DNA of 64,000 nucleotides from Nocardia wallacei. Its GTDB lineage: Bacteria; Actinomycetota; Actinomycetes; Mycobacteriales; Mycobacteriaceae. The stretch's first letter is position 1, and every line of letters begins with the position of its first letter. The notes below the pieces were generated by a model. It made no database searches and was not told the DNA's origin. It saw nothing but the letters and a program-made list of their open reading frames with translations. Positions 1,516 through 46,329 of the stretch are shown one piece after another. The translations under genes and the position numbers were made by a program. Where the stretch lies: contig NZ_JARWQD010000136.1 of NCBI RefSeq assembly GCF_029869545.1, positions 1 through 64,000 of the forward strand. Reading direction: 5' to 3'.

Positions 1516-4131
1516 GTGGACCCGTTTTCACTCATCGTGACTGCATTGGCCAGTGGTGCAGCCGCAGGTGGGCACGGCGCAACGTCAGCGGGGGTGCGTG
1601 ATGCGTATTCTGCGCTCCGCCAGCGGATAACACGTGACGGTAGCGACGAGGAAGCCACGGCCGCGCTCGAAGCCATCGAGGCCACCGGCGGTGAAGACCG
1701 TGCCGCGGTGGAGAGCGTCGTAAGGCGTGCTCGGGTGAGTGACGACCAGGAGACTGCGGCGCTGGCACGCCGTCTGCTGGAGCAGGTTCAAGAGGTTCCG
1801 GCCCATGCTGGGGTCAGCGCCGCCGTAGCCCACGCGGACACCGGTGTTCCCGAATCGGCCGACGGGACAGCGGCTCGCAGTGTCGCCGACCGGGAACACA
1901 CCGCATCACCGACCGACCGGGAACACCAACTCCGTGTGCCAGCGAACCACACTGGCCACCGCACGCTGCGGCGCCGACCCGTCGTCGCGGTGTTGATCGG
2001 TCTGGTCATCGCCCTGGCCGCCGCTACGTCTGCTGTCGTACTCCAGCAAGACAGAGAATCTGGTCCTCCGGGCAGGGCCGAGGTCGCCGGCGACCTTCTC
2101 GGCCGAAGCCAGCGCGCAGCCGAAACCGACCCCTACACATCGCGTTTGGCGGCACTGGCCGCCTGGCGTCTGCACGAAAGCCCCGAGACCTATCGCGCGA
2201 TGTTCAACGCCGCACGCAATCCGCTCACCGCCGTGCTCGACAGCCACACCGCCGGGGTCAAGTCGGTGGCGTCCAGTCGTGACGGTCGCTTCCTGGCCAC
2301 CGGCAGCGTCGACGGCACCGTCCGGTTGTGGGACCCGGCCACACACCAGCCCATCGGTGAACCACTCACCGGGCACACCGGCTCCATCGAGTCGGTGACG
2401 TTCAGTCCCGGCGAAAGCCTCCTCGCCACCAGCAGCGTCGACGGGACCGTCCGATTGTGGGACCCGGCTACCCGCCGTCCCGTCGGTCAACCACTGGCCG
2501 GGCACACCCGGGGAGGCGAGATCGCGTTCAGTCCCGACGGACGCCTCCTTTCTACCAACAGCGCCGACGGGATCGTCCGGTTGTGGGACCCGGCCACACG
2601 CCAGCCCGTCGGTGAACCACTCGACACCGACGGCGCTGTCGAATCCGTGGTGTTCAGTCCTGACGGAAGGCTCCTCGCCACCGTCGGCAGCGCCGTCGAG
2701 GTGTGGGATGCTGCCACAGGCAGACCCGTCGGTAAACCACGCACCGGCTCTGTCGAGTCGGTGGCGTTCAGTCCCGACGGAAGCCTGCTCGCCACCGGCG
2801 GCGCCACGGTCCGATTGTGGAAACCAACCGCAGACTCGCCGTTGGACATCGCACAACTCGCCCCGTTCGACGACAACAACGACACCGTCACGACGATGAC
2901 GTTCAGTCCCGACGGAAGCCTGCTCGCCATCGGCACCGAGGACGGCACCGTCCAGTTGTTCGATATTGCTGCGCGCGCGCCTATCGGTGATCCACTCACC
3001 GCCCATGCCGGCCGGGTCGCCTCGGTGGCGTTCAGCCCTGACGGAACCCTCCTTGCCGCCGATGGCGGCAGCACCGTGCGGGTATGGGACCCTGCCATTC
3101 CACAATCCATCGGTAAAGCACTCGTCGGTACCTCCGGCGGTTCGGTGGGCTCGGTGGCGTTCAGTCCCGATGGAACGCTGCTTGCCACCGGCGGCAGCGA
3201 CGACACCGTCCTGTGGGACCCCGGTACGCGCCAGCCTGTTGGTAGACCACTCCCTGGCGTCCCCAGCTCCGTCGAGTCGGTGACGTTCAGTCGTGACGGA
3301 CGTCTCCTTGCCACCGCCGGGGGCGGCACTGGCCCCGGCGGCCGCTTCTATGGCGCCGTCCAGTTGTGGGATCCCGCCACACGCCAGCCCGTCGGCGAAC
3401 CACTCACCGGCCACAGCAGGGACGTCTACTCGGTGGCGTTCAGTCCCGACGGGCGCTTCCTCGCCACCGGCAGCGGCGACGCCACCGTCAGGCTATGGGA
3501 TCCTGCTACACGCCAACCCCTTGGTGAACCACTCACCGGCCACACCGGCTCCGTCGAGTCGGTGGCATTCAGTCCCGACGGCCGCCTCCTCGCCACCGGC
3601 AGCGGTAAAACCGTCAGGCTGTGGGATCCTGCCACACGCCAGCCCGTCGGTGAACTGCCCACCGACGCCTACACGGTCAACTTGGTGGCGTTCAGCGCTG
3701 ACGGCCGCCTCCTCGCGACCGGCAGCGACGGCACCGTCCAGCTGTGGGACCCCGCCACACGCCAGCCCGTCGGTGAACGACTCACCGTCACCCGCAACGC
3801 CTTGATCAAGTCCATGGCGTTCAGTCCCGACGGGCACCTCCTCGCCATCGGCAGCAGCGACGGCGCCGCCGGGCTCTGGGATACCGCCACACGCCAGCCC
3901 ATCGGTGATCTACTCACCGGTCAATCCGACTCCGCCGCCATCGAGTCGGTGGCGTTCAGTCCTGACGGAAGGCTTCTTGCTACCGGCGAGCTATACGGAA
4001 CCCAGCTATGGAACATCGAATTCACTGTCAGTGCCGAGAAAATCCTCTGCAGCCAAGAGCCGGACGCCTTCGCCGCACCACGGTGGCCACCGGATATCCC
4101 CGAGGACATGCGTCCCCGACTATGCCCGTAG
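1516..4131 (+). CDS. Membrane-anchored protein with 14 WD40 repeats and an N-terminal helical domain
   Basis: The protein is 871 aa from GTG 1516, behind a GGTGGGGGG ribosome-binding site. Residues 1-95 (MDPFSLIVTALASGAAAGG...) form a small alanine/glycine-rich helical domain that also occurs in the proteins at 38914-39378 and 45958-46323. A single transmembrane helix follows at about 156-176 (VVAVLIGLVIALAAATSAVV). Residues from about 235 on contain 14 WD40 blades, most ending VRLWDPATRQPVGEPL, enough for two seven-bladed propellers. The nSTAND or NACHT ATPase often placed before such propellers is missing. I infer a sensor or scaffold with a cytosolic N-terminal signalling domain and a propeller on the other side of the membrane. 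The near-identical blades suggest recent internal duplication. No partner gene is adjacent. Confidence 0.85.
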   Translation: MDPFSLIVTALASGAAAGGHGATSAGVRDAYSALRQRITRDGSDEEATAALEAIEATGGEDRAAVESVVRRARVSDDQETAALARRLLEQVQEVPAHAGVSAAVAHADTGVPESADGTAARSVADREHTASPTDREHQLRVPANHTGHRTLRRRPVVAVLIGLVIALAAATSAVVLQQDRESGPPGRAEVAGDLLGRSQRAAETDPYTSRLAALAAWRLHESPETYRAMFNAARNPLTAVLDSHTAGVKSVASSRDGRFLATGSVDGTVRLWDPATHQPIGEPLTGHTGSIESVTFSPGESLLATSSVDGTVRLWDPATRRPVGQPLAGHTRGGEIAFSPDGRLLSTNSADGIVRLWDPATRQPVGEPLDTDGAVESVVFSPDGRLLATVGSAVEVWDAATGRPVGKPRTGSVESVAFSPDGSLLATGGATVRLWKPTADSPLDIAQLAPFDDNNDTVTTMTFSPDGSLLAIGTEDGTVQLFDIAARAPIGDPLTAHAGRVASVAFSPDGTLLAADGGSTVRVWDPAIPQSIGKALVGTSGGSVGSVAFSPDGTLLATGGSDDTVLWDPGTRQPVGRPLPGVPSSVESVTFSRDGRLLATAGGGTGPGGRFYGAVQLWDPATRQPVGEPLTGHSRDVYSVAFSPDGRFLATGSGDATVRLWDPATRQPLGEPLTGHTGSVESVAFSPDGRLLATGSGKTVRLWDPATRQPVGELPTDAYTVNLVAFSADGRLLATGSDGTVQLWDPATRQPVGERLTVTRNALIKSMAFSPDGHLLAIGSSDGAAGLWDTATRQPIGDLLTGQSDSAAIESVAFSPDGRLLATGELYGTQLWNIEFTVSAEKILCSQEPDAFAAPRWPPDIPEDMRPRLCP

Positions 4132-7067: not shown

Positions 7068-8039
7068 CTATAAGGCGCGATTATCTGGTCGTGTAGCCGC
7101 GTAGAAATCTTTTCCGTGGTAATCGTCAATTCGCACTGGAATTCCGAAATCGGGAGCGTGGAGCATTTTTCCTGCGCCTAGGTAAATTCCGACATGGTGC
7201 ACGTCGGCGTCGGTGCCGAAGAAAAGTAGGTCGCCGGGCTGTAGCGCGTTCTCCGGAATCCGTGGCCCGACGTTGACCTGGTCGTGGGTGGTGCGGGGCA
7301 GGTCGATGCCGACGGTGGCGTAGGCGGCTCGGGTGAGTCCGGAGCAGTCCCAGCCGCCGGAGACTTCGGGGCCGTTGCCGCCCCACACGTACGGTTGCCC
7401 GAGTTGCGCGCAGGCGAACGAGATCACTTGTGCGGCAGTGGGAGTGGCGGCCTGGATGTGCTGGCAGTCGCCGGTGCCGGGTGGCGGGTCGAGTCGGTAG
7501 CTGGCGGCTTGGTCGAGGACTTGCTGCACGTACCAGTCGGCGTGGTTGTAGGCGAAGATCGCGCGGTAGAGGTCGGCGGGGGCGCCGGAGTCGCACAGGT
7601 AGTGGGCGGCGGTGTGGATGGCGTCGCTGTCGTTGTAGCGCGACGGCGGGTTCGCGCCGCCGGGCGGGGGCGGGTGGCGGTCGACGACGCTGTCGAAGGT
7701 GCCGGACAGGAACTGCATCGGCCCGGCAGCGCCCGCGCTGTTCTCGCCGGAGTGCACGCCGGGCAGTTGGCTTCTGCCGTGGTCGGTTTCGACTTTGCCG
7801 ATGCCGGCCAGGACGGTCCAGTCGAGGCCGGGGCAGTCGGCAGCGGCGGCTTTCTGGTAGAGCGCGAGCTTGTCGGCGGGGATGTCGGCGCGAGCGTCGG
7901 GGCTCGGGGCGGATCCGCTGGCGGCGGGGCCGGGCATGGTGGTGCGGGCGGAGTCGACGGCGACCACGGTGACGGTGAACGCGCCAATGGTCACCGCCCC
8001 GAACAGGGCGACGGCTGCGGCGGTAATGCGGAGCATCAT
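7068..8039 (-). CDS. Conjugation-associated lytic transglycosylase-NlpC/P60 endopeptidase
   Basis: The start ATG 8039 overlaps the upstream stop in an ATGA junction, giving 323 aa. An N-terminal membrane/signal segment (residues 5-28) is followed by a transglycosylase-like domain: E84 in the GKVETDHG motif, then GAAGPMQF at 103-110 and AYNHADWYV. A C40 peptidase domain follows from about 200, with catalytic Cys232 (WDCSGL), His282 (HHVGIYLG) and His294. The two activities would cut glycan strands and peptide stems to let the conjugation channel cross the wall. This pairing is typical of Gram-positive type IV secretion elements and matches its place at the end of the T4SS operon. Confidence 0.9.
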   Translation of the reverse strand: MMLRITAAAVALFGAVTIGAFTVTVVAVDSARTTMPGPAASGSAPSPDARADIPADKLALYQKAAAADCPGLDWTVLAGIGKVETDHGRSQLPGVHSGENSAGAAGPMQFLSGTFDSVVDRHPPPPGGANPPSRYNDSDAIHTAAHYLCDSGAPADLYRAIFAYNHADWYVQQVLDQAASYRLDPPPGTGDCQHIQAATPTAAQVISFACAQLGQPYVWGGNGPEVSGGWDCSGLTRAAYATVGIDLPRTTHDQVNVGPRIPENALQPGDLLFFGTDADVHHVGIYLGAGKMLHAPDFGIPVRIDDYHGKDFYAATRPDNRAL

Positions 8040-9037
8040 GGCCTCGCGTCCCGGGGCGGGCGGGGAGGTGGCGGTGGCAGCACCGTGCGCGGGTCGACGG
8101 CCGGGCTCGCGATGTCGAAGGCCGAGCCGTTGGTGTCCGGGAGTTGGGGCCAGGCGGCAGTGAGCTGGTGCAGCGTGAGCCGGGGCTGGCGGGCGGTGGC
8201 GGGTGGGTGCAGCGGCAGCCAGACCGGCCCGTCCGGCCCGGTGGTGGCGTAGTCGGCGGCGGCGGTCGCGATCGGGACGGTGTCCGGGGCGGATAGCGCG
8301 GCGGCTGCGGCCCGTAGGGCGGTGCGGGCGGTGGCTTCGCGGCGGGTGGTGGGCAGCCATAGCAGGAGCGGGGTGGTGATGCCGGTGGCGGCGGCCAGCT
8401 CGGCGTATCCGGTGAGCTTGCTGCAGACTCGGGTGAGAGGTTCTGTGCCGCAGTCGTATTCGAGGAAGAACTCCAGTCCGCGCTGGCCGGGACGGGCGGG
8501 GTCGAGGCGGCCGTAGGCATCGGGACGCGCCAGATCGCCCCACAGCCGTGCGCATCGGGTGGGCGACCACCACGCGGTCAGGGTCATCTCGCTTGCGGGT
8601 CGGGTGGCCAGGCGGGTGAACCAGTCGTGCACGCCGATGTCGTGGTTCAGTCGCAGGCTGTGCGCGAGGGCCAGCGTGCGGTCGTGTCGCCAGCGCAGCT
8701 CGCGGACATCGAGGCCGTGCTCGCCGGCCAGGACCGCGGCTCCGGCTGGCGCGAGGATCCAGTGCCAGGGCGCGGTGCCGAGGTCACGGCGCGGCCGGAA
8801 CCGGTCGATCACCTGGTTGTCGTGGAGTGTGAGCAGTCGGCGGCTGGCGCGGCGGGTCGCGGTGAACGCGAGCGTGCTTATCTGGGTGGTGGTCAGCACG
8901 CGATGCTCGTAGAGCATCCACAACAACCACCGATCCCGGCCGGTGAGCATCGCGGCTAGGTCTGCCTGCCGCGACAGGGACCGGGCGGACGCAGACGGCC
9001 CGGATGGGCGGGGCCGGATGGGCGGAGTTCGGGTCAT
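8036..9037 (-). CDS. Replication-relaxation family protein
   Basis: The 333-aa protein starts at ATG 9037 behind GGAGG. Residues 35-60 (AMLTGRDRWLLWMLYEHRVLTTTQISTLAF) form a winged-helix-like N-terminus, and the next part resembles the replication-relaxation (Replic_Relax) family of actinobacterial plasmids and ICEs. The central EFFLEYDCGTEPLTRV segment is reminiscent of a nuclease core (E-Y-D), but I cannot confirm catalysis. It overlaps the hydrolase gene by 4 nt and follows the coupling-protein gene by 68 nt, so it probably works in DNA processing for transfer. It could take part of the relaxase role, since no standard relaxase gene is visible in this window. Confidence 0.7.
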   Translation of the reverse strand: MTRTPPIRPRPSGPSASARSLSRQADLAAMLTGRDRWLLWMLYEHRVLTTTQISTLAFTATRRASRRLLTLHDNQVIDRFRPRRDLGTAPWHWILAPAGAAVLAGEHGLDVRELRWRHDRTLALAHSLRLNHDIGVHDWFTRLATRPASEMTLTAWWSPTRCARLWGDLARPDAYGRLDPARPGQRGLEFFLEYDCGTEPLTRVCSKLTGYAELAAATGITTPLLLWLPTTRREATARTALRAAAAALSAPDTVPIATAAADYATTGPDGPVWLPLHPPATARQPRLTLHQLTAAWPQLPDTNGSAFDIASPAVDPRTVLPPPPPRPPRDARP

Positions 9038-9045
9038 GGAGGACA

Positions 9046-9059
9046 CCTCCGAATCGGAG
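9046..9059 (-). promoter_or_regulatory. Inverted repeat covering the ribosome-binding site of the replication-relaxation gene
   Basis: CTCCGAATCGGAG is a near-perfect palindrome at 9047-9059. On the minus strand its right arm contains most of the GGAGG site that serves ATG 9037, so the hairpin could hide the site and damp translation of this gene relative to the upstream T4SS genes. This is seen in sequence only. Confidence 0.35.
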
Positions 9060-9105
9060 AGAGCGCATGGCGGGATGAACGGAAATGCCTTGCGGCAGTG
9101 ATGGT

Positions 9106-11646
9106 TCAGCGGCGACGTGGGTCGCTGTCGGAGGCACCTGGACCGGGCGGTGCCGGTGGCCGGGGCGCGGGCGGAGCGGGTACGGGCCGCGCGGTGCTGG
9201 TGCGGGTGGTGTGGGCACGGGCCGCGGCGCGGATCTCGGCGGACCGGCCTCGGATCGCCGGGGGCAGTGGCTCGGTGGCGACGGTGCACGGCGGCGTGTT
9301 CTGGCCGCGCACGATCAGGCGCGTGGCGGCGTGGTAGGCGTCGAGGTGGGCGAGGTCGTGCTCGCCGAGGTGGGGTTGGGTGTGGCGGGCCAGGTCGCGG
9401 GCGTCTTCGGGCGACACCGAGAACACGATCTTGTTTCGGGCGTTGGTGGAAACCGCTTCCCGCACCGTGGGTGTCAGCTGACCGAGGTGCTGGTGTGCCA
9501 GCACCATCGACAGTTTCAGGGCGCGGGCCTCGGCGAGCATGTCCTCCACCGGTGTGGAGGAGTGCAGGAAGTTGTGGAACTCGTCGAGGTAGAGCGCGGC
9601 GTCGCGGCGTTCGGTGGTGGGTGTGGCGGCGCGTGCGGTGGCAGCCTGCCAGGTACGGGCCACCAGCAGGGCGCCGACAAGGCGGGTGGTTTCCTCGCCG
9701 AGGCGGCCCTTGGGCAGCCGGGCCAGCACGAGCCCGCCTTGGTCGAGAACGCCGCCAAGGTCGACGGTGGCAGGGCCTGCGGCAAGGGCGGTCTTGACGA
9801 ACGGCCGCAGCAGCAGGTGCCGCAACTTGTTCAGCAGCGGGCTGGTGAGCTGGTTGCGGCCCGGGTCGCCGAGGGCTTCGAAGGTCCGCCAGAACCCTTG
9901 CACCACAGGATCGTTCACGCCCGCGGTGAGCCGGGCCCGGTAGGTGTCGTCGGTCAGCAGGCGGGCGACATCGGCGAGGGTGGCGGTCGCGGGTTGCGCC
10001 AAGACGGTCAGCAGGGCGTTGCGGAACAGGTCGTCGGTGCGGGGGCCCCAGAACTGGTGGTAGATGCGGCGGAAGACCGTGCCCAGGTTGTCCACCACCA
10101 ACGCGACATCCCGGCCAACAGTGGACAGGTCAAGGGGGTTGAAGCACGGGGGCGGGCTGGCGGAGTCGGCATCGAGCAGCACCACCTTGCCCACGCAGTG
10201 CCGGGGCAGCCGTTTGAGGATGTCTGTGACGAGGTCACCTTTGGGGTCGATGAGGACCAGCCCGCGCCCGGCGTCGCTGTCGGCGAGGGCCATGTGTGCG
10301 AGCAGTGTCGATTTGCCGCAGCCGGTGGGGCCGAGTACGTGCACGTGGTGGCGGGCGTCGGCGACCCGCATCGCGACCCTCCGGCCTCGGGTGGCGTCGG
10401 CGACACCGAGGGGTTTCGTGCCGGGCCCACCGATCGGGATGGCCGCGGTGGGGGCCAGGGCGCGGGCTCCGGCGCGGTGGATCTCGGCGATACCCGCGTC
10501 GAGGGGCAGGTGCGCGATGGTGGCGAGTTCCGGGGTCGACAGCAGGTCCCCGCGTCCGAGCCGCCGTCCGGCAAGCACTTCCGGCAGCCGACGGCAGCGG
10601 CGGCGCCGGTAGTGGTTGAGATCTGAACAGCCCGACAAGCACGACGACACTGCGTGCGCGCGGCCCCGCACCACCCGCCCGGCCCTGGCCACGGTGTCAC
10701 GGTCGGCGTCGGCCGGGACGGTGGCGGTGACGGCGTAGCGGATGACGGTGGACCAGTGAGTGCCGCGGGTCTTGCTCGCCGCGGCGTGATCGCGAGCGGA
10801 TTGCTGCAGCCTCGCCTGCCGGTCGACCGGCTCCGGCACGCCCCGCAGCCCGGTGCGTGTGCGGGGACGGCCGAAGAACAGGCCGAACACGTCTCGGGCC
10901 ACGTCGCCGGGCATCCCGGCCAGCAGCACCCCTCGGCGGCTGGTCGGGCCGGTTGTGTGGCGGGCGCGGCGGCCGACGACGGGGCGGGCCAGGATCTGCA
11001 GACAGGCGGTGTAGCCGGGTGGCATCCCGGCGGCGGCGGCGATCACGGCATCGGCGGGGTCGCCGTGGCCGTCGGTGCGGATCGGCCACCGCTCGTGCTG
11101 CGCGAGCCGCAATGCCCCGCCTGCCAGCAGTCCCTGTTGTCCGGCCGGAGGAGCGGGTAGTGGCGGTGCGGCGGCCACGGTGCGGGTGCGGGCACCGCGC
11201 CAGGCCGAACCGACAGCGTTCTCGACCAGATGCGGTGGGACGCAGCCGGGTACCCAGATGCGGATCACCGCCCCGTCCTCGGGGCTGACCCGATACTCGA
11301 ACCCGAGATGTGGTGTCCCGGAAAGCCACCGGCGCCACCGGGTGGAAGTGAGCGCGCCGTGCAGCTGTTCCCACCAGATCTCGGCGCTAGCGGGTTTCAC
11401 CTCGGGCGGAACGAAGACCTCGACGAGGCGGGCCCCGGAAGCCCACCGCCGCTGCCGCATCCGCCGCACCCCGGCGGCGAGGACGAGAATGCCGGCAGCA
11501 GCGACGACAGCGGTGCAGGCCGCCGGGACGCCGAATCGCCCGGCGAGATCAGTGATCCGGCTCCAGACGAGACCGGGGTCGGTGAGCAGGCCACCGGCGC
11601 CGTGCCCGCCGGAAGGAGGGGTCTGGGCGTGCGAGATCGTGTTCAT
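9106..11646 (-). CDS. Type IV coupling protein (VirD4/TraG-like ATPase)
   Basis: The protein is 846 aa. Its ATG 11646 overlaps the upstream stop (TGATG). It has one N-terminal membrane segment (about 37-60), a poorly conserved middle region, Walker A GPTGCGKSTLL at about residue 440 and Walker B LYLDEFHNFL at about 685, followed by the TraG-type C-terminus with VLAHQHLGQL. It would couple the DNA substrate to the transfer channel and power its export. The location directly after the VirB4 gene, with overlapping codons, supports this. Confidence 0.9.
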   Translation of the reverse strand: MNTISHAQTPPSGGHGAGGLLTDPGLVWSRITDLAGRFGVPAACTAVVAAAGILVLAAGVRRMRQRRWASGARLVEVFVPPEVKPASAEIWWEQLHGALTSTRWRRWLSGTPHLGFEYRVSPEDGAVIRIWVPGCVPPHLVENAVGSAWRGARTRTVAAAPPLPAPPAGQQGLLAGGALRLAQHERWPIRTDGHGDPADAVIAAAAGMPPGYTACLQILARPVVGRRARHTTGPTSRRGVLLAGMPGDVARDVFGLFFGRPRTRTGLRGVPEPVDRQARLQQSARDHAAASKTRGTHWSTVIRYAVTATVPADADRDTVARAGRVVRGRAHAVSSCLSGCSDLNHYRRRRCRRLPEVLAGRRLGRGDLLSTPELATIAHLPLDAGIAEIHRAGARALAPTAAIPIGGPGTKPLGVADATRGRRVAMRVADARHHVHVLGPTGCGKSTLLAHMALADSDAGRGLVLIDPKGDLVTDILKRLPRHCVGKVVLLDADSASPPPCFNPLDLSTVGRDVALVVDNLGTVFRRIYHQFWGPRTDDLFRNALLTVLAQPATATLADVARLLTDDTYRARLTAGVNDPVVQGFWRTFEALGDPGRNQLTSPLLNKLRHLLLRPFVKTALAAGPATVDLGGVLDQGGLVLARLPKGRLGEETTRLVGALLVARTWQAATARAATPTTERRDAALYLDEFHNFLHSSTPVEDMLAEARALKLSMVLAHQHLGQLTPTVREAVSTNARNKIVFSVSPEDARDLARHTQPHLGEHDLAHLDAYHAATRLIVRGQNTPPCTVATEPLPPAIRGRSAEIRAAARAHTTRTSTARPVPAPPAPRPPAPPGPGASDSDPRRR

Positions 11647-14600
11647 CAGGCCGCCTCCGCCGGATCGATGAACTCCTCGGCATCACCGTCGTCCTCGTCC
11701 TCGTCCTCGTCGGCGAGGTCCTCGAGCTGTTCGTCCTCGAAGTCGATGCCGGCGTTGTGCTCCTCGTCGGCGCCGAGGTCGATCTCGACGGCCGCGATGG
11801 TGTCGTGGAGGTCGGCTTCGCTCTCGTCGTCGTTGGCGAGTTCGATGTAGCTGGGGTCGGTGGCGGTGTCGTTGCCGGTGGACCACTCCGGGGTCGTGGT
11901 GGCCAGCTGATGCTCAGCGAGCGAGGCGACCGATCCGAATACCGTGCGCTGGTGGGCGCCGATAGCCAAGAGACCCTGGCCGCGGTCGGCGGTGAGCAGG
12001 AACCGACGCTCTCCCTCCGACAGCCCGAACGCATCGCCTACCTGGTCGATGGACTGCGTTGCCTGCCGCAACAGCACCTGGGTCGCGGCGTTGGCGACGA
12101 CGGCCTTGCCGAGGTCGGTACCAAGCACATCACCGCTGTCCTGAGTGGCGACAGTGAGACCAACCCAGTACTTGCGGGCGGATTTGGCCAGCCGGAACAG
12201 GAACCGAGCCCCGGCGGGCTGCCGCATCACCAGCCATGCCTCGTCCACGACCACCAGCCGGGGCCGCCGGGTGGCAGGGTCGCTCACCCGCCGCCAGGTG
12301 GCGTCCAACGCGAGGACGGTGCCGATCGTTTTCAGTTCTTCGGGCAGCGCCCGCAGCGAATACACGATCAGCCCGGACTCGGCCGGAGTGGTCGTGGCGC
12401 CGTCGAGCAGCTCACCGAACGCGCCCCCGCGCACGTAGGGGGCCAGGGCGGCGGCCAGCTCGGCCGCGACCGGGTCGCCGCCGGTGGTGGCGAGCTGGTC
12501 GCGCAGCATGCTCATCGTGGGAGCCGGTCGTAGCCACGTGGCCGGGTTGTCGGTGATCCCGGCGGCGGCGTAGGTGGCGGTCAGCGCGGTGTCCAGGACG
12601 GCACGCTGGGCGGGGGTCTGTTCGCCGAGCAGGACGGCGATGACGGTGTGCAAGTACAGCTTCCGGCGCGTGAGCGCGTCGGCGGTAGCGGAGCACCGGC
12701 CGTCAGGACGGCGGTGGACCTCCAGGTCGAACGGGTTCACGCACACGTTCGGTGCGCCGAGCTGGATGTAGGTGCCGGCGACCGCGTCGGCGAGGGCGCG
12801 GTACTCGTCCTCGGGGTCGATGATTGTCGCCTCGATTCCCCGGAACAGCGACCGCAGTACCCCGGTCTTCACCAGATACGACTTGCCGGCCCCGGACTGG
12901 CCGAGGATCACCTCGTTGTGGTTGTGCATGCCGGGCCCGAACCGGTCGTGAAACAGCAGCCCGGCGGCGCCGTCACGGCCGTAGAAGGTCCCCGAGGGGG
13001 TCGTGGAGGCGGGGTCGGCGGGTGGCAGCTGGGCGGAGGCGAACGGGACGGCCGCGGCCAGGGCGTGGCTGTCGAAGGTGCGGTGGGTGCGGATCGGGTC
13101 CAGGCCGAGCGGGAGCGTGGCCACCCACCCCTGTACGGCGCGGTAGGTGAGGGGGCAGGTGTCGATGAGCAGACTCGCCGCCAGGGTCCGCAGCGCGGTC
13201 ACCTGCTCGGCCAGCTCGCCCGCCGAGCTGGCGTGCACGGTCAGATACAGCCCGGCCCGGAACAGGCGAGACTCGCCGCGAGCAAGCTGCGCCGACAGTG
13301 CGGCAGCGTCCTCGGCGGCGACCTCGACCGCCGCGTCACCGACGCGGCGGTGCATCTCCGCCGAAGCCAGCGACGATTCCAGGCGGGCGATCTGACGGCG
13401 CAGCCGCACCGCGGCGGTGGTCGCCGGGATCGGCTCGATATGCAGGGCGATATCCACCCGGCCCGGGTACGCCGCCAACGGGGTCAGCCATCCGGCGGCC
13501 ACCTCACGTGGGTAGCCGGTGACCGCGATCGTCGCCACGAAGTCGCCGCCGACCTCCAGATGGCGGGTGCCGATCGTCAGCGACTCCGGCGCGAACTCCG
13601 CCAGGCCCCGGGCCCGCCGTGCCCGGCGATGGAGCCCACTGACGCCGAGGAGGCGGCGTGCGCCCGCGCGGGCAGGATCGCCGTCGCTATCGTCGGTGCC
13701 GGAGTCGTCGCCGTTGTTGCTGTCGGTGCTGATGTCGAGTGTGGTGCCGGTGTAGTCGCTGTCGCCGGTGGTGATGATCTCGGTGGGTCCGGCGGTGTCG
13801 GCGCCGTAGGGGACGAGGTTGGCGGGGTTGGTGCAGCTGGTCAGAATCGCCCGCGCCGCGACGTCGTCGAGGGCACGGACCCCGATGCCGAGCGGGGCCA
13901 GCAACCCGGAGGCGTCTTCGACCCGTGCCAGCAGCCGCGCTTCCGCCGCGCGGCGTGCCGCGTCGGACTCATGCTGCTGGCGGCGGCCCCGGTGGGTGAG
14001 CCCGGCCAGGGGTGAGGCGGCCAGTGTGGTGGCCGGGGCGAGGGGTTCGCGCCAGACCAGCAGGACTTGCCGGTGGGCGGTGGTGTCGTCGTCGGCAAGC
14101 TCGGCCAAATGCGCACCGTGGTCGCGAGCGAATTCGGCCAGCTCGGGTGACATGTCCTCGGCCGCGCCACGCAGCCGGGCGACATGGCCGGTCACATCGA
14201 GGCGGACCGACCGCAGCAGGATCTGCACCCCGTGCCCGGACAAGCCCTGCAGGTATCCGGCCAGCGCGGCGACCAGACTCGCTTGCTCGTCCGGGGTGCG
14301 CAGCGACAGGTTGATCGTGGTCGCGGCGGCGATCACCGCCAGCCCGTCCGCGCCGAGGTCGACCACACCGACCCCGTTCCCGCCGCTGGTGACGGTGTGC
14401 GGCAGCGCGGCGGTGCTGGCGGTGATCGGCTGTGCCGCCTTCGGCCGGGATCGTCGCGGTGTGTGCGCGGTGATCCAGCCCGGTGCGGTGGCGACGTCGC
14501 CGTCGGGGGCCGCGACCAGGTGCCGCGCCTGTACGCGGTGCCGCACAGCCGCGACAAGGAGCTGGTCGCCGGACAGGCCGTCGCGGGTGGTGAGGACGGT

Positions 14601-14792
14601 GGCGGTCACGATCGCGGCGACGGGGGCCGCTGCGGCGGCGAACACCGTGATCGGCAGTACGGCGCGGGTGGCGGCCCACGCCAGCAGCATGGCCAGGCCC
14701 GTGCCGGTGAGCAGGGCGAGCTGGCGGGCGGTGAACGGACCGACGATCCGGTCGGGCCGCTCTACATCGGAGGGAATGCGGTACATGCTCAT
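11646..14792 (-). CDS. VirB4-like T4SS ATPase with an N-terminal membrane domain
   Basis: The start ATG 14792, behind TGGAGGTG, overlaps the upstream stop by ATGA and gives 1048 aa. The N-terminus (MSMYRIPSDVERPDRIVG, then two hydrophobic helices at about 25-70) looks like the PrgI/SCO6880 module fused to many Gram-positive VirB4 proteins. Walker A GQSGAGKSYLVK lies at about residue 630, Walker B LVVVDEAWLVM follows, and an RLAKSARKYWVGL arm comes after it. The C-terminal tail is very acidic (DEDEDDGDAEE). Known VirB4 proteins energise pilus assembly and substrate passage. Lacking a separate PrgI gene, this element carries that part as a fusion. Confidence 0.9.
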   Translation of the reverse strand: MSMYRIPSDVERPDRIVGPFTARQLALLTGTGLAMLLAWAATRAVLPITVFAAAAAPVAAIVTATVLTTRDGLSGDQLLVAAVRHRVQARHLVAAPDGDVATAPGWITAHTPRRSRPKAAQPITASTAALPHTVTSGGNGVGVVDLGADGLAVIAAATTINLSLRTPDEQASLVAALAGYLQGLSGHGVQILLRSVRLDVTGHVARLRGAAEDMSPELAEFARDHGAHLAELADDDTTAHRQVLLVWREPLAPATTLAASPLAGLTHRGRRQQHESDAARRAAEARLLARVEDASGLLAPLGIGVRALDDVAARAILTSCTNPANLVPYGADTAGPTEIITTGDSDYTGTTLDISTDSNNGDDSGTDDSDGDPARAGARRLLGVSGLHRRARRARGLAEFAPESLTIGTRHLEVGGDFVATIAVTGYPREVAAGWLTPLAAYPGRVDIALHIEPIPATTAAVRLRRQIARLESSLASAEMHRRVGDAAVEVAAEDAAALSAQLARGESRLFRAGLYLTVHASSAGELAEQVTALRTLAASLLIDTCPLTYRAVQGWVATLPLGLDPIRTHRTFDSHALAAAVPFASAQLPPADPASTTPSGTFYGRDGAAGLLFHDRFGPGMHNHNEVILGQSGAGKSYLVKTGVLRSLFRGIEATIIDPEDEYRALADAVAGTYIQLGAPNVCVNPFDLEVHRRPDGRCSATADALTRRKLYLHTVIAVLLGEQTPAQRAVLDTALTATYAAAGITDNPATWLRPAPTMSMLRDQLATTGGDPVAAELAAALAPYVRGGAFGELLDGATTTPAESGLIVYSLRALPEELKTIGTVLALDATWRRVSDPATRRPRLVVVDEAWLVMRQPAGARFLFRLAKSARKYWVGLTVATQDSGDVLGTDLGKAVVANAATQVLLRQATQSIDQVGDAFGLSEGERRFLLTADRGQGLLAIGAHQRTVFGSVASLAEHQLATTTPEWSTGNDTATDPSYIELANDDESEADLHDTIAAVEIDLGADEEHNAGIDFEDEQLEDLADEDEDEDDGDAEEFIDPAEAA

Positions 14793-16798
14793 GAGGCACC
14801 TCCAGGGGTGGTGGGCCGCCGACGGCGGCGGACGGGAAGATCGGGCAAGGGAAGATGCAGCTGACGGCCCTGCGGACGTGGTGCGGGCGGAGCCACCCAC
14901 GCCGGGGCGGGGGCCGGAGCCGGGCGCGGCACCCGTGTCACGCCGAGCGGCAGCACGTACTGGCCCTCGGCGGTGACCTGCGGTCGCGCATACGGGTCAC
15001 GCGGGCGTGACCGAGGCCCGGGAGCGGGCGGCGGAGACGCGCTGGCGGCTGGCTGAGGCGGCGGGAACCGCAGCGCCAGCTGACGGCCCTTCGGAGCCCG
15101 CTTCACCGGCCTCACCGGCGGTGTCGCGTCCCCGGCCGCCGGGGAACCACCGGCCGCGGCCGATGCGGTGCGCGGTCGTGCCGCGCGAGCCGGTTCGGCT
15201 GGGCGGGGGCGTTTCCTGGCGGGGCTGGCGTAGAACAGGGCGCGCTGGCCGTCGGGGCGAGCCGCTTCCGGGGGAAGCTGCGGTCCCGGTTTGAACAGAT
15301 CCAGGGCCAGCTGTTTTCCGGCGTGCGGGGACGGCGGTGCGCCCGGGACTCGGCGGACCGGCTTCGTCGCCGGTGCCGGTGGCGTGGGGTTGCGTTTGAC
15401 TCGCTGGAGTCCTTTCAGGGGCAGCAGCATCTGCCCATCGGTGGTGGTTTTCTCCCGCCAGTACGGGTCGGCCGCATCGCGCAGGGCGTCGCGTTCGGCA
15501 CGGCTCGGCTTGCGCGGCGGCGGTTGAGGGACGGCGGGTTTGGAGGGACGGAGACTGCCGGCCAGCGCGCTCCCGCCTTTGCGGAGCAGCCCGAAGGTCT
15601 TGTAGGCGATGAAGCCGCGCACGAGCTGCCCGGTCATGGAGCGGCCGTGGCCGATCCGCATCGCCGACAGCATCCAGAACGGGACCTTGGCCAATATGCC
15701 CAGCAGCGCGATGGACACGATCAGGTTGACCGGCCCGGTCGACACCGAAGCGAAGAAACTCGATCCGTCCGGGGTGAGGAACACGCGAGCGATGGCGATC
15801 AGGACCAGCGACTGCACGACCTGGATAGCCAGGCACGCACTCATGGCACGCCACCACCATCGGGCGATCGGCTCGGCCGGTGGGAACCCGTGGCACATCA
15901 ACGCCAGCGGGGCGGCCACGATCAGCACGATCGTGACCACGACCCGGATCACGTACCCGACCAGCAGCGCGGTCACCAGCACCACCAGCACCGTGGACAA
16001 CAGCAGCCCGAAAATGCCCGCCCCGTTGTGCGCGGTCAGCAGCTGCCGCAGTGCCTGCGACGCCGAGTCCTGGTCGATGTCGTCGCCCGCGACCGCCTCC
16101 GACACTGCGTTCGCGACGCGAACCGCCTCGGTGGCCAGCGGGAAACTCAACGCCGCCGCGACCATGCCGATCACCAGCCGGGGCGCGATGTCGCCCACCG
16201 ACCAGCGTGACTGCAGAGTCTGATACGACATCAGCAGAACCCCGGCGGCCATCACCAGCAGCCCGTACACGGTCACCGTGATCTCCCACGACGACGACCA
16301 CAACTGCCCGACCCGCGGCAAGCTGGCCGGGTCCGGAGTGGTCAGCAGCGTCGAAGACAGCAACTCCAGCAGCGGATTCAACGCGACCGAGACGAGGTTG
16401 GAGAAGAACCCGTCCATCGCCTTGATCACGCACCCACTGATGTGGTTGATCCCGCAATCAGGGTCGGCCACCTCCCCCGGCCCCGAACCGGTACCGGGTG
16501 CCGGAGCACCCGGTGTCGTCGGTACAGCAGGCGTCGTCGGGGTGGCGTGCGGCGCCGTCGGCGGTCCCTGTGACGGCCCGGTTGGTGGGGTCTGTGTCGG
16601 GGGCGGCGTAGGGACAGGGGCCGGGGCGGCCGGTGTGGTGGCCACCGGTGGCGGTGGTGGCACCGGGGCGGGGTCCGCTGTGGCCGGGCCGGTGGTGGCA
16701 GCCCAGATCGCGGCGGCGAGTCCGGCCGCGAGGATCCACCACCAGCGGCGGCGGTGGGGCGGCCCGGGGCGCGCCTGGTGGGTGGGTGTGGTGGGCAT
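14789..16798 (-). CDS. TrbL/VirB6-like polytopic conjugal transfer protein
   Basis: The protein is 669 aa from ATG 16798, 2 nt after the upstream stop. A signal-type helix (WWWILAAGLAAAIWAATTGPATA) leads into a long proline/threonine linker (about 45-115). Six or more membrane helices follow (about 180-430, with CHGFPPAEPIARWWWRAM between helices), the layout of TrbL/VirB6 inner-channel proteins. The last 230 residues are basic and proline-rich and probably cytoplasmic. The neighbours are a small pilin-like gene upstream and the VirB4 gene downstream. Confidence 0.8.
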   Translation of the reverse strand: MPTTPTHQARPGPPHRRRWWWILAAGLAAAIWAATTGPATADPAPVPPPPPVATTPAAPAPVPTPPPTQTPPTGPSQGPPTAPHATPTTPAVPTTPGAPAPGTGSGPGEVADPDCGINHISGCVIKAMDGFFSNLVSVALNPLLELLSSTLLTTPDPASLPRVGQLWSSSWEITVTVYGLLVMAAGVLLMSYQTLQSRWSVGDIAPRLVIGMVAAALSFPLATEAVRVANAVSEAVAGDDIDQDSASQALRQLLTAHNGAGIFGLLLSTVLVVLVTALLVGYVIRVVVTIVLIVAAPLALMCHGFPPAEPIARWWWRAMSACLAIQVVQSLVLIAIARVFLTPDGSSFFASVSTGPVNLIVSIALLGILAKVPFWMLSAMRIGHGRSMTGQLVRGFIAYKTFGLLRKGGSALAGSLRPSKPAVPQPPPRKPSRAERDALRDAADPYWREKTTTDGQMLLPLKGLQRVKRNPTPPAPATKPVRRVPGAPPSPHAGKQLALDLFKPGPQLPPEAARPDGQRALFYASPARKRPRPAEPARAARPRTASAAAGGSPAAGDATPPVRPVKRAPKGRQLALRFPPPQPAASASPPPAPGPRSRPRDPYARPQVTAEGQYVLPLGVTRVPRPAPAPAPAWVAPPAPRPQGRQLHLPLPDLPVRRRRRPTTPGGAS

Positions 16799-16800
16799 GG

Positions 16801-17199
16801 TCAGCCTCCGACCAGCGATTTGAGGACTTCCACCACGACCGGGGCGAGGATGGCCAGGCTGTAGCCGATCAACGCGGCCCGCACACACGACTTCGCGCGC
16901 TCGACCTCGCCGGCATCACCACCCGACAGCAGGTAGCGGGCCCCGCCGACCGTCAAATAGACCGTGGCGACGGTGGCGAGGATGCCGATCAGCCAGTTCC
17001 GCAGATTGTTCAGCACTTCGGCGAGCGATCCGGCCACCGCCAGCACCGCCGGGGCTGCCGTCGCCGGAGCCGCCGCAGCGCACACGGCGACCACAGTGCC
17101 GACGGCCGCAGCCACGACCGCGGCAGGACGGGGTGAGCAGGGACAGCCTCTACCGCGCGGGACGAAGGGTGGGGGAACGAGGGAACGGGACTTGCGCAT
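16801..17199 (-). CDS. Small VirB2/TrbC-like membrane protein
   Basis: The 132-aa protein starts at ATG 17199 behind AAGGAGGTG, overlapping the upstream stop (TGATG). It has a signal-like helix (AAVVAAAVGTVVAVCAAAAPATAA) and two further hydrophobic helices (LIGILATVATVYLTVGGARYLLSGG and ALIGYSLAILAPVVVEVL). This three-helix pattern, with a cleavable leader and two membrane helices, fits VirB2-like pilin or channel subunits of Gram-positive T4SS. The gene order pilin-TrbL-VirB4-VirD4 supports the call. The conserved leader motif (copy B) lies 57 nt upstream. Confidence 0.75.
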   Translation of the reverse strand: MRKSRSLVPPPFVPRGRGCPCSPRPAAVVAAAVGTVVAVCAAAAPATAAPAVLAVAGSLAEVLNNLRNWLIGILATVATVYLTVGGARYLLSGGDAGEVERAKSCVRAALIGYSLAILAPVVVEVLKSLVGG

Positions 17200-21673: not shown

Positions 21674-22815
21674 ACCATCTTCAACTTTCGGGTGAGCGTC
21701 GTATGCCATTTTTTCAGGCGCCCAAGATCACCTTCTTGCAGGAGTCTCATATGCGATAGCCTGTTTCGAATTGCGGGTACCTCGACTGTGAATGACCGCC
21801 ACACATAATCCTCGACCCCCAAACTTCCGTAGACCTTCGGCCTGGAGCGGCGAAGTTCCAGGAGCTCTCCGAGAGTGAGCCATTCCAACGGATCCCGGAT
21901 TTCCTTAATGCTCTTGGCGGCTGGGTAGGCGTCGCCAGAGGCGCGCTCCAGCACTTCGGCAGGGAGATTGCCGTTCAATGCGTGGGTCTGCCACGTCTGA
22001 TTGGGGCAACTCATGATTGCGGCCGTGCGCATCGCACACCTGAGAGAGCGCTCGATGCTCCATATGAGGCCGAACGCCTCAGTGACGCCACTTGGAGGTG
22101 CGTTGTATCGGGCGATACCGTCCGCCAATGCGCGGCGTAGCAGGCTGTGGGAACGCGGAAACGCCCATACGTATTCATCATCGGCCACTCGCACCAACCC
22201 GGCGCCAGCCAAACCTTCAACAGTTCGCGACTGCAGGTTCGCGATTACTTCGTCACGTGAGACCATAGATTCAAAGATAATACGATCCATATCTGAAACG
22301 GCATCCATGCCGAGTTCGCTAAGTATGGTAACTATCAGGTCCCCAGATGGTTCTATCGCGGTTCCGTCATCGGTAGGTAAAACGAAGGCCATTTCACCGT
22401 TATCATCGATAACGGGCATTAGCGGCGGAGTAACTACCTTTGCGTCGATAAGAACCGAACTTCCAGGAACGTCAGGATATCTACTTTTGGGAAGCCGTGA
22501 GAAAAGGATGAATTTATTCCCATTCTCACAGTCTTCGTGAATCTTCTGCCGCAACGAACTCAGATTTTGTGGCCCACCGCCCTGGCAGAATACTTCAAGC
22601 TCGCGAAGTGCCACCGTCGACGATTCTGGGTAGTTGCCAAGCTCGCCATCTAGGTATTCTATCGCTGTCATGTTTGCTGGTACGCATCGTTCGCACGTAC
22701 TGCGGATCCCATCGAATCCAGCGCCTAGCGGCACGAAAACAATACCGTGACGATTGGCGGATCTCAGCAATGAAGCGATCCACTGCGAGATATAAGTCTG
22801 CCCATTTTCGGTCAC
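21670..22815 (-). CDS. HEPN-motif protein, partner of an IF2N-ATPase (candidate defence effector)
   Basis: The 381-aa protein overlaps the upstream ATPase gene by 4 nt (ATGA). The first 200 residues ([36 protein letters not shown]...) look like an alpha/beta nucleotide- or regulator-type domain that I cannot name. The C-terminus is helical and ends in RNRLSH (about 350-355), a good match to the R-x4-H active-site motif of HEPN ribonucleases. Codon use is far more A/T-rich than the flanks, which suggests recent arrival. Pairing a HEPN protein with a P-loop ATPase is common in abortive-infection systems, so an RNA-cutting effector is a reasonable inference, unproven. Confidence 0.6.
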
Positions 22816-24596
22816 AGCAACTCCAATAAACTGTTGATCTCGTACCTATTATCGACTGGACGGACTAACCCCAAGCTGAGGAGATGACTCAACGCCTGCG
22901 GATACTCCTGAGCAAATTCCGAAAAAGTGTCGTAGTCTTCGGAAAGTGCGTCCAATAGGAGTGCCTCTGTGCTGTAGTATCGCTTTACGTGATCGATCAT
23001 CTCGGCAATATTTCCACTTATTTCTCCTTTCCAGGGCGCAAGCGCGTAGAGAACGTCAGAATTCGTTATCCTCCGCCGGAATATATCTATTGGGAGTCTT
23101 CCGACTACTGTTGAAGCGAGATTTCGGTAAAGAAAAGCATGTCCGCCGGATGCGTCATAAAGAGAGCGCAACGCAGAATTTTCTATTTCAATCCCCATCT
23201 TCGCACCAATGGTCGTGGCGAGATGGTCGGCATCATCTCGGGTCAGCGGTCCGACATAATGGGACTTCGCCCACGAAAAGAGCGGATTTGGACGCCCGTA
23301 CAGGCGGCCATTCTCTAGGATTGCGCTAGTCAGTCCGGACAGTATGAATGTGAAGTTTTTACACTCTTGCACGACGCTCCGTAGCGCGCCCAAGAATTGC
23401 GCAATTTGAGGCATCGGGCCCTCGGCTACATCGATTCGATCCGCTGGCGTGAGAAACTCGATCTCATCGAGGAGGAGAAGCAGCCCGTAGTCTTCATTCT
23501 CCAACCTCTTGAGAGCCGCTGTGAGGACCGTTTTGAACTGCGGGATACTGGCCCGATCGTTCAACCGCCTAATTTCACTGGTGCGCAAGTTTCGGGACTG
23601 GAGTTCGTCAACCAGCTTGACCGAAAGGGCTTCGATTATATGTGGAATGGGGTCGTCGTCCGGTGGAGCTGGAAATGCCTCTAGATCCAGTAGAAGCGGT
23701 ATAGTCCTGGTGGATTCAAGATCTGCGGAGAGTTGATATAGAACGCTTGTCTTACCAGCCTTGCGAAGTCCGAAGATGCCGGCGACGCGTTGGCGCTTGA
23801 CATCGTCTCGTAGGGTCTGAAGGAGCGTCTTCCGTCCGAAGAATTGTCCACCTTTTACCGGTGTAGTCTCATAGAACAAGTCTCGGCTGTATACATAATC
23901 TCGTATTCTTGTGATGAATGACATAGCATCCATCTCTTCGTCCGAACGCAGCGGAATAGCGAGGAACCCCGAGGCGCTCCAGTCCTCCAGTTTTGCGCCA
24001 ATCCGAGGGTCAGGTGCGCACACGAATATCAAGTCAGGAGTCGCTTCGCGATGCATCGTCCGCAAGGTTTCCTTCGCATTTTGGAAGGTTCGTACCTGCA
24101 GGTCTCGATAGGGTGTGTAAACTACCAGCACCTCCCGTGTGAGCCCGAAGGCTGCTTCCACGGCTCCACTGAACCTCACAAGCGCGATGCCGCAGTCCTT
24201 TAGCTGACGGGTGCCCGTCGACGCGTGGACCATTTGGGATCCCAGTCGGCGCAATGCGTCGAGGTGGTCAATTGCCTCGGGGAAGAGCCGTCCAAGTTGC
24301 GCAATCCCATCGAGCACTTCGGGTGCTGTCGGCTCCTTAACTGGGTTCGCGTTCCATCCGTACATCGACGGGACAGGATGTGGGTCAGCGGGCGGCGTAA
24401 CGGCCCGTCGGCCTGCGCCTGGTTCAATGCCAACGCCACGCTGGGTAGCATCCCGGAGCCTTCGTGCAAGCGGTGCCTCAATCGTGCTCGACGCAGACTT
24501 GACGAATTCTCCCTGCTCGCGGAGTCGTCGCAGAAGGGTACTCGCTGGAACCCCTAACTCCTTCGCAAGCTCGTGTACCCGGATCTTTCCCGCCAT
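22812..24596 (-). CDS. P-loop ATPase with an N-terminal IF-2N-like domain (candidate defence sensor)
   Basis: The 594-aa protein starts at ATG 24596 behind AGGAG. Residues 1-48 ([28 protein letters not shown]) match the small helical N-terminal domain of translation initiation factor IF-2. The middle domain (about 90-240, with [18 protein letters not shown] and [14 protein letters not shown]) is unrecognised. A STAND-like or Arch-ATPase-like module follows: FFGRKTLL at about 253, Walker [10 protein letters not shown] at 276-284, Walker [11 protein letters not shown] at 372-381, and a winged-helix-like end. Neighbourhood, low GC and fusion to a translation-factor domain suggest a sensor that gates the HEPN partner. 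Confidence 0.65.
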
Positions 24597-24610
24597 CTGA
24601 TGCTCCTGTG

Positions 24611-25226
24611 TCAAGGCGTGACTAGCGGTCCCCACCGTGGCGGCCCAGGACTCCGCACGATTCTCTCAGGAATGCGGAGTCTGGACGTGATGAATCCCCC
24701 CGGTACTTGTTCCTTCGGCAGCCGCAGCCGCCCCGCTTGCACCGCGGTCACCAGCTCGGTGAACGATTCGATACACCACGACAGTTCAGCCGCGTCTCGT
24801 TCGTGGTGTTGCGGGTCGTGCTGCCGGAGTCCGTACAGCACGTACTTCCACACCAGCCATGCCACCCACTGGCCATACGTTGACGGACTCAACGGTGCAT
24901 CGACCTGGTACACGATGTTTCTGGTATGCGCGCCTGCTTCCCGGTCGATCAGCCAGACGGCCAGGTCGAGCTGTTCGTTCAACCTGGCCATATCCCGGGT
25001 GTCCTTGGGCCGCTGCTCGTGGATGTACCGCCAGGTACCGACCAGCTGCACGGTGACTCGGCCGACGAGGGTGCTCGGTTCTTCCCTCCCGGCGCACACT
25101 CGCAGGAACAGCCCGGAACCCGGCAAGGGCTGGTCCGGTGTCGCCTCCGTCGGCGGCAGGGGTGAAGGCGAAGGGCGTATCCGGAGTGAGGCTGTAGACG
25201 ACGTACTCGGGTCGAGCGTCGGGCAT
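24611..25226 (-). pseudogene. Hypothetical protein gene with a frame break
   Basis: Translation should start at ATG 25226 (MPDARPEYVVYSLTPDTPFAF) behind AAAGGACG. Coding signal passes into the next frame near 25115 and continues (LFLRVCAGREEPSTLVGRVTVQLVGTWRYIHE ... TYGQWVAWLVWKYVLYGL ... [13 protein letters not shown]) to 24611, about 204 aa in all. I do not recognise the family. It closes the chain of overlapping genes that begins at 28874. A single-base sequencing error is possible, since both halves are well preserved. Confidence 0.5.
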
Positions 25227-30535: not shown

Positions 30536-30601
30536 GCTCCCGTCGCGGGCTGATTGGTGAATGATCGTCGCCAGTTAGCTTCCGCGGCAGGAGGTTTCGA
30601 G

Positions 30602-31351
30602 TTGTCGAGCGTGGGTGTGCCGGGCTCTCAGCGGTCGGTCGGTGTCGATGCTGTCGAGGTCGCTTTCCGGCGTGCCGATGGGTCCGAGCTGGTCCAGCCG
30701 CTGGAAGCTGTGGGGGCTGAGGTGTTGGGCGGGGCGGCTCCGTGGCGGAGGTTCCGCTGGTATCACGATCAGAAGCACTATTCGGGGTCGTATTGGTCGG
30801 CGACCGAGTCCGGGCATGTCGTCTATGAGTCGCGGCTCGAGCTGGCTCGGCTGTTGTTCGCCGATTTCGATTGCTCGGTGCGGCGGATCGTGGCGCAGCC
30901 GTTTCTGCTGCGGGCGGAGTGCGGCGGGAAGGTTCGCCGTCACGTCCCGGACTTCTTGTTGTTCACCGGATCCGGCCCGGTGGTGGTCGATGTGAAACCT
31001 GCTGCGCGGCTACAGAATCCGAAGGTCGCGTTCACGTTTGGGTGGACCGAGCAGGTGGTGACGGCTCGTGGCTGGCGATACGAGGTCTGGATCGAACCGG
31101 AGCCGGTTGAGCTGGGCAATGTCGGATTCCTCGCCGGCTACCGGCGGGCCTGGTTGTTCGAGCCGGACGTTCTCGATGGGGTGCGGGGCTCGGTAACGAG
31201 CGGGATGACTATCGCCGAGGTACTTGCTTCGATATCGACGCTTCCGCGAGCGGTGGTCCGGGCAGGACTGTTGCACCTGTTGTGGCGGCAGGAGTTCGTG
31301 GTGGATATGTCCACGCGGCTCAGGTCGGGCAGCATTCTGCAGGCGGCGTGA
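30602..31351 (+). CDS. tnsA: TnsA-like transposon endonuclease
   Basis: The 249-aa protein starts at TTG 30602, well spaced behind GCAGGAGG; an earlier TTG at 30554 has no such site. The PD-(D/E)xK nuclease elements are seen in order: YESRLELARLLFADFD (Glu), RRHVPDFLL (Asp) and VVVDVKP (Lys). TnsA cuts the 5' ends of the transposon so that, with TnsB, it moves by cut-and-paste. The stop overlaps the TnsB start (TGATG). Confidence 0.85.
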   Translation: MSSVGVPGSQRSVGVDAVEVAFRRADGSELVQPLEAVGAEVLGGAAPWRRFRWYHDQKHYSGSYWSATESGHVVYESRLELARLLFADFDCSVRRIVAQPFLLRAECGGKVRRHVPDFLLFTGSGPVVVDVKPAARLQNPKVAFTFGWTEQVVTARGWRYEVWIEPEPVELGNVGFLAGYRRAWLFEPDVLDGVRGSVTSGMTIAEVLASISTLPRAVVRAGLLHLLWRQEFVVDMSTRLRSGSILQAA

Positions 31352-45947: not shown

Positions 45948-45957
45948 TTCGCCGTGC

Positions 45958-46323: not shown

Positions 46324-46329
46324 GCGCAT

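Follow-up and report, generated by a model that had tools for sequence, protein, structure and literature searches.

The NTPase is generally regarded as the switch of NLR-type immunity and the amyloid motif as the wire of BELL systems. The BELL/BASS combination was reportedly first described in J Mol Biol in 2020, and proteins of the HeLo, MLKL and RPW8 type are understood to expel their N-terminal helix and form a pore. The BELL plus BASS layout of bacterial amyloid signalosomes, in which BASS3 is RHIM-like, is outlined in the available text of three reports (PMC7889193, PMC8086366, PMC9815663), one of which presents Bell as a homolog of HeLo, MLKL and RPW8 (PMC9815663). WD40 blades are described in the available parts of two further papers: Npun_R6612 (WRAP, a STAND-ATPase) carries 14 of them as two seven-bladed rings (PMC9218822), and in HET-D/HET-E of Podospora the strongly positively selected codons 7, 9, 25 and 27 flank the conserved codons 8 and 26 (PMC1805685).

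Here we examine a gene of Nocardia wallacei located at 1516-4131 (+) in a window of 64,000 nucleotides, by which we mean the whole stretch of DNA analysed; the window is the start of a 65,072-base contig in a genome of 8.07 Mb. Its N-terminal domain is similar in layout and sequence to that of the actinobacterial BELL/BASS-NLR signalosomes and its WD40 half groups with their NLR partners, but it has neither a BASS-like motif of the RHIM-like kind nor an nSTAND1 NTPase, and combines effector and sensor in one chain. As in WRAP, there are 14 C-terminal blades in an immune-type protein, but the STAND ATPase is absent and the blades, at 68% nucleotide identity, are far less identical than those of Npun_R6612. 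The turnover of repeats and the four WD40 positions that vary most are shared with HET-D/HET-E as portrayed in the available text, whereas those proteins contain a NACHT NTPase and positive selection was shown there, compared with pN/pS values of 1.0-1.4 at the four corresponding positions of the blades studied here. The order of effector, transmembrane (TM) helix, linker and WD40 repeats, with no NTPase, recurs in four Nocardia TIR-TM-WD40 proteins (L072 3755-6577, L073 3537-6407, L091 4527-5772, L123 1-1596; TIR by Pfam in L091 and by eye in the others), in which the effector is TIR rather than BELL and the linker of L072 and L073 is more distant. Two of the four have 14 blades, with the sequences of L091 and L123 being cut at the sequence end. 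No description of a BELL-WD40 fusion was found among the titles and abstracts listed in searches of the open literature.

Architecture of the fusion gene

The gene is an intact open reading frame with a GTG start that encodes 871 amino acids, and a gene of matching architecture is present in Nocardia australiensis. The protein starts with a BELL-type helical domain (aa 1-95, 1516-1800), the first helix of which is hydrophobic and rich in Gly and Ala, followed by a probable leftover of the tail of a lost nSTAND1 region (aa 110-154, 1843-1977), recognized from genome and profile matches and a MAFFT alignment. Hydropathy and charges place a TM helix with an Arg-rich N side at aa 157-175 (1984-2040), and the next segment is a helical linker (aa 187-242, 2074-2241) that recurs within the genus in nSTAND1-TM-WD40 proteins and in a single TIR protein. 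The remainder consists of WD40 blades 1-7 (2254-3138; HMM blades at aa 247-539) and 8-14 (3139-4056; aa 542-847), corresponding to a putative first and second propeller, and a C-terminal tail (4048-4128) in which aa 845 and 870 are the sole cysteines of the whole protein. All of these features are on the forward strand.

The initial annotation had described fourteen WD40 blades and one membrane helix without an NTPase, and these parts of it were borne out. The blade count was 14 both by motif and by an HMM built from the gene's own blades (aa 247-847), and the Pfam WD40 model PF00400 matched 12 stretches with E = 3.7e-114. The segment at aa 157-175 was the single TM segment (hydropathy 2.65), and AlphaFold placed a helix at 156-177 there with low confidence. 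Of the 61 Pfam families that matched the full-length protein, the best 25 included no NTPase, none was found in a separate Pfam scan of aa 1-241 or by NCBIfam, and no nSTAND1 domain was found by blastp using the window's own nSTAND1 domain as the query. Because the NTPase is absent, the protein does not belong to the NLR family and falls outside the bacterial NLR/STAND receptors. From the count of 14 blades we infer a double seven-bladed propeller; the whole-protein AlphaFold model (pLDDT 50.6) was too poor to show one. The description of the blades as almost repeated DNA was overstated, since the mean pairwise nucleotide identity of the blades is 68% and the maximum 81%. Tandem Repeats Finder reported arrays within the gene, such as 4.7 copies at 3365-3968 with a score of 598. 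The one PADLOC match, to a HEAT-ARM model, covered the WD40 stretch at aa 386-515 only and was uninformative.

A predicted BELL-type domain at the N-terminus

The helical domain is shared with a second gene in the window (46048-46323, -; 45% identity), as had been noted before, while its likeness to BELL and the apparent descent of the protein from a two-gene unit had been missed. The earlier picture of an odd sensor stands as far as a membrane-anchored WD40 protein without an NTPase is concerned, but the protein is more than a sensor in that the helical domain resembles a BELL effector. The second gene (45958-46323, -) is a stand-alone BELL gene with a C-terminal RHIM-like motif, GVQVGERNTQTNTFG, and provides the reference form within the same window. 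Two glutamines in this motif are seven residues apart, as are the two that were mutated in a test of S. atratus BASS3 according to the available text of PMC9815663. Its likely partner is a gene at 42501-45947 (-) that combines an nSTAND1 NTPase with a mycosin-type subtilase (Pfam nSTAND1, 6.2e-109; NCBIfam T7SS_mycosin, 2.8e-115) and has a motif of similar type, GVQVGSDNTQINYHYHG, at the N-terminus. As an observation in its own right, this pair (42501-46329, -) has the appearance of a signalosome of the amyloid type whose receptor contains a protease, the mycosin-type domain replacing WD40. The protein encoded by the fusion gene had two matches in the host genome, itself and the helical domain at 46048-46323 (-), and a profile of the TM-linker segment identified one further weak place (C280), where no frame passed the blade filter.

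Searches with aa 1-241 yielded matches in 29 of 148 Nocardia genomes, in which the helical domain was mostly a short separate frame. In 12 cases, a BELL match was followed on the same strand, 1.5-2.2 kb away (1.7 kb in G123 and G078), by a match to the tail that began at aa 74-115 and ended at about aa 240, and the loci that were read contained a gene pair, the BELL gene followed by an nSTAND1-TM-WD40 gene. The four nearest stand-alone BELLs encoded beside nSTAND1 genes were 65% (L074), 63% (L075), 60% (L083) and 57% (L076) identical to aa 1-95. Stand-alone BELL frames (n = 18) were 121-173 aa long with one exception of 253 aa, and every one of them was closed by a RHIM-like stretch, in the form GVQxG in 12 and as the variants GVHAG (L074-L076), AVQSG (L080), GVVLG (L085) and GIQIG (L087) in the other six. 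On the receptor side, a RHIM-like motif was present within the first 75 residues in 12 of 14 heads, one of which (L092) had no BELL match alongside; the two heads without a scored motif (L075, L084) belong to frames read from too far upstream to tell. At five of the 18 BELL loci (L077, L080, L081, L082, L089) there was no nSTAND1 match alongside, and the neighbor was a protein of about 300 aa with a RHIM-like start in three and an 850-870-aa frame with the motif in two. The neighbors of about 300 aa (L077 4876-5805, L080 5680-6579, L082 5701-6630, all -) start with a RHIM-like sequence, for example LPIQIGEKNVQNNFW, followed by a hydrophobic stretch, and represent a possible non-NLR partner.

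We refer to the N-terminal domain of the fusion as BELL on the basis of layout, motif and partner, and neither Pfam nor NCBIfam gave a model that matched it. AlphaFold predicted five helices for this domain at a weak pLDDT of 54.6, where a four-helix bundle with a releasable N-terminal helix is expected for HeLo/MLKL. A search that covered the RHIM-like family alone, by regular expression and in the aligned spacer, detected no such motif in the fusion protein, and there was no adjacent NLR gene, the scanned neighbors being a 129-aa open reading frame without a family and a cutinase gene. With both the RHIM-like motif and an adjacent NLR lacking, this is not a complete BELL/BASS signalosome; it may well act like a shortened one.

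Origin of the fusion

To the extent covered by the genomes searched, the fusion is found in two species only. A BELL-TM-WD40 fusion with 60% identity, seven blades and the same junction is present in N. australiensis (DSM 111727), and this was the only full-length match to aa 1-241 outside the gene itself in 148 Nocardia genomes and 401 genomes of the family; none was found in 396 genomes of the phylum, a draw that did not list N. australiensis, and in these wide searches only the best first-look candidates were scored. A scan of contigs from named collections with two strict patterns retrieved one relative among 108 stretches, again from N. australiensis, and the search of a plasmid collection yielded a single weak match, to 29% of aa 1-241. 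Misassembly was rejected as an origin of the fusion because the assembly of another species has the identical junction.

Several lines of evidence concern the segment between the BELL domain and the TM helix. Matches to the tail of nSTAND1 regions started at aa 105-111 (G123, G078, G036:C19, G075:C80) and those of a profile at 101-110, and MAFFT aligned aa 110-150, approximately, with the tail of the nSTAND1 region in canonical receptors. In pairwise blastp comparisons into the tail, only L083 of 15 reached aa 111, with L074 and L075 starting at 173. The segment at aa 110-154 is a probable leftover of a lost nSTAND1 region, and the gene seems to descend from a two-gene unit of BELL and nSTAND1-TM-WD40. 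In the nearest lineage (G123:C21), 1,695 bases separate the end of the BELL match from the start of the tail match, compared with 14 codons in the fused gene; therefore a single deletion of about 1.7 kb could have removed the motif on the BELL side, the motif on the NLR side and the NTPase.

Both halves of the protein were placed with the same operon lineage. The two fusions grouped together with supports of 100/97 in a BELL tree of 20 rows and 90/81 in a tree of 18 rows inferred from the tail-TM-linker segment, beside L074-L076 in each case with supports of 94/90 and 85/82, which are moderate and below the mark of 95/80 that the tool considers strong. A third relative, G075 L063, is a TM-WD40 protein with neither BELL nor NTPase that groups with both fusions in the TM-linker tree (100/99). 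Matches to the TM-linker segment were found at 84 places in 55 of the 148 genomes, the 20 closest being 16 nSTAND1 proteins, the two BELL fusions, one bare TM-WD40 protein and one TIR protein. From the 64 more distant matches ten were fetched, mostly for short frames, and the five loci that passed the blade filter were inspected.

Blade number, order and variability

The initial annotation had further suggested that the blades expand or contract by recombination and so vary specificity, with constancy of number and sequence as the opposing observation; compared between species, neither is constant. There are 14 blades in the gene under study, seven in the N. australiensis fusion and 14 in the G075 relative. 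Among ten canonical receptors that were complete and countable by HMM, eight had 14 blades, one had 13 and one had nine (scored as ten under the first HMM), with L076 being too divergent to count. All complete blade open reading frames taken together (n = 22) contained 14 blades in 12, seven in five, eight in two, and 13, nine and six in one each. Whole rings are mostly kept, in that 17 of the 22 have 14 or seven blades.

No conservation of blade order relative to N. australiensis was detected in permutation tests allowing a single breakpoint (p = 0.06) or any monotone mapping (p = 0.32), and positional orthology of the blades was thus not found. Concerted evolution of the blades in the two fusions was considered and not retained: at silent sites they were slightly closer within than between the proteins, a weak signal given that 46 of 500 shuffles reached the observed value, and at the protein level the gene's own blades resembled each other no more closely than they did those of N. 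australiensis (0.56 against 0.55). In the silent-site test of the remaining nine protein pairs, the observed value was reached in 0 of 500 shuffles for eight pairs and in 2 of 500 for the ninth, a result to which differences in genome codon usage could contribute.

To locate the variable positions, 63 blades from five proteins were pooled, including those of the gene under study, the variability of which had been seen before the comparison with HET-D/E. The highest pN values among the 41 columns were obtained for columns 20, 2, 4, 40 and 22, in that order. Columns 2, 4, 20 and 22 flank the conserved V3 and D21 with the spacing seen in HET-D/E, and are located in the d-a loop and the b-c turn. 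The pN/pS ratios were 1.0-1.4 at these four columns and higher, 1.5-1.8, at columns 3, 7, 35 and 40, and diversifying selection on the blades and relaxed constraint are not told apart by these ratios. The suggested turnover is in line with the difference between seven and 14 blades, the absence of a detectably conserved order and the variable predicted interaction face, and is qualified by the rings being mostly kept whole. No reverse transcriptase model was matched among the scanned open reading frames, which cover part of the window, as regards the idea of hypermutation by a retroelement (available text of PMC10907252).

Topology and proposed function

Charges of +4/0 precede the TM helix of the fusion protein and charges of +2/-3 follow it. 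This bias was general: Arg and Lys were richer on the N side than on the C side in all of 15 TM-WD40 proteins (the two BELL fusions, the G075 relative, ten nSTAND1 and two TIR proteins), and 13 of the 15 had exactly two cysteines after the TM helix, the exceptions being L090 with none and L079 with three. Three proteins were outside the count: two kinase-WD40 proteins, of which L068 has a TM helix not followed by any cysteine and L070 had no TM helix assigned, and the mycosin fusion, which lacks WD40 repeats. The charge bias and the C-terminal cysteines, the only two pointers used here, suggest that the BELL domain is inside and the propellers outside, and the cysteines perhaps form a terminal disulfide in the C-terminal tail.

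The reading that we favor, with about even confidence, is that of a single-chain membrane receptor, composed of a predicted cell-death effector of the BELL type on the cytoplasmic side, one TM helix with a helical linker and an outward double propeller, derived by deletion and sharing an ancestor with the N. australiensis protein. In the ancestor of the two genes, an operon of BELL-BASS and nSTAND1-TM-WD40 would have lost about 1.7 kb. The outward propellers would bind a ligand or be cross-linked, and their clustering would bring the BELL domains together without a nucleotide switch or amyloid templating, upon which the clustered BELL domains might permeabilize the membrane. Turnover of the blades and variable residues on the top face could then retune specificity. 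The architecture, the descent, the shared junction and the purifying selection on BELL are supported by the sequences, and it is the ligand, the clustering, the pore and the outward position of the propellers that we infer. Simple clustering as the trigger would make for a leaky receptor, and an off-control has left no trace in the sequence. The TIR-TM-WD40 proteins suggest by analogy that the short layout also serves another death-type domain. More tentatively, and with clearly less confidence, the protein may represent a one-chain bacterial "death receptor" in which ligand sensing by a double WD40 propeller outside the cell sets off a BELL pore-former inside it directly, with no nucleotide switch and no amyloid relay in between. 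Such a protein would amount to a natural short-circuit of the amyloid signalosome, evolving by gain or loss of entire propellers and by exchange of residues on the top face.

A less probable but still credible explanation is that the fused protein is a decoy or a brake, which would dampen complete BELL/NLR systems by binding either their BELL domain or the ligand that they recognize. The window contains a complete pair of BELL-BASS and nSTAND1-mycosin genes at a distance of about 38 kb, and the lack of an NTPase and an amyloid motif could leave an inert, membrane-held BELL. However, the two BELLs in the window are only 45% identical and sit on different branches, with the deepest split weakly supported (56/85), and in N. 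australiensis the fusion was the single BELL match at the thresholds applied, which would make it a brake without an obvious target. We consider it rather unlikely that the gene encodes a WD40 scaffold, in the cytoplasm or at the membrane, that bears a helical domain and is unrelated to cell death. Many WD40 proteins do serve as scaffolds, and no curated family model matched the helical domain, but its close relatives are encoded beside nSTAND1 receptors and have RHIM-like motifs, and the WD40 half likewise groups with nSTAND1 receptors.

Selection on the fused BELL domain

Substitution ratios were estimated for the pair of fusions. Provided that both species inherited the fusion from a common ancestor, their two genes diverged entirely after it had formed. 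The dN/dS ratio was 0.26-0.27 for BELL, 0.73 for the spacer and 0.42 for the TM-linker segment. For stand-alone BELLs the median was 0.26 over 24 pairs with dS below 1, which were taken from 91 pairs among 14 proteins (four of the 18 were left out) and are not independent of each other. With a ratio of 0.27 against this median of 0.26, the fused BELL is not released from constraint.

The open frames of 871 codons in the gene studied here and 580 codons in N. australiensis have been retained at a dS of about 0.7. That the gene is merely decaying, as what chance has left of an immune operon after a deletion, is very unlikely because BELL is constrained like its stand-alone counterparts and both frames are open, even though the gene looks like a deletion product, lies 1.5 kb from a contig end amid transposition and conjugation genes and has a third relative, in G075, without BELL and NTPase.

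Evolution seems to have dropped the switch and the wire while keeping the sensor and the killer domain under selection. If the protein works as proposed, clustering of the sensor alone can fire a BELL domain, and the gene would offer a simple one-gene system for tests of BELL activity and a counterpart in bacteria of Toll-like and death receptors, as well as a bacterial case for the idea from fungi that WD40 repeats turn over and thereby change specificity.

Other features of the window

The contig end (1-200) is a C-rich stretch of low complexity, perhaps poorly assembled. A few kb downstream of the fusion gene, the region 7068-16888 (-) contains NlpC/P60, VirD4-like and VirB4-like genes in a conjugation-type block, recognized by NCBIfam matches below the cut-off and suggesting a mobile element. 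Further along, one protein (22812-24635, -) combines an IF2_N domain with an nSTAND1-like NTPase. A Tn7-like block (30554-37324, +) consists of TnsA-like (just below the Pfam cut-off), TnsB-like, TniB/TnsC-like and TniQ genes, with the TniQ frame being 1061 aa long and containing an extra HTH match. Finally, the gene at 39432-41867 (+) encodes a repeat-bearing NB-ARC/TPR STAND protein with 120-bp repeats at 40855-41566.
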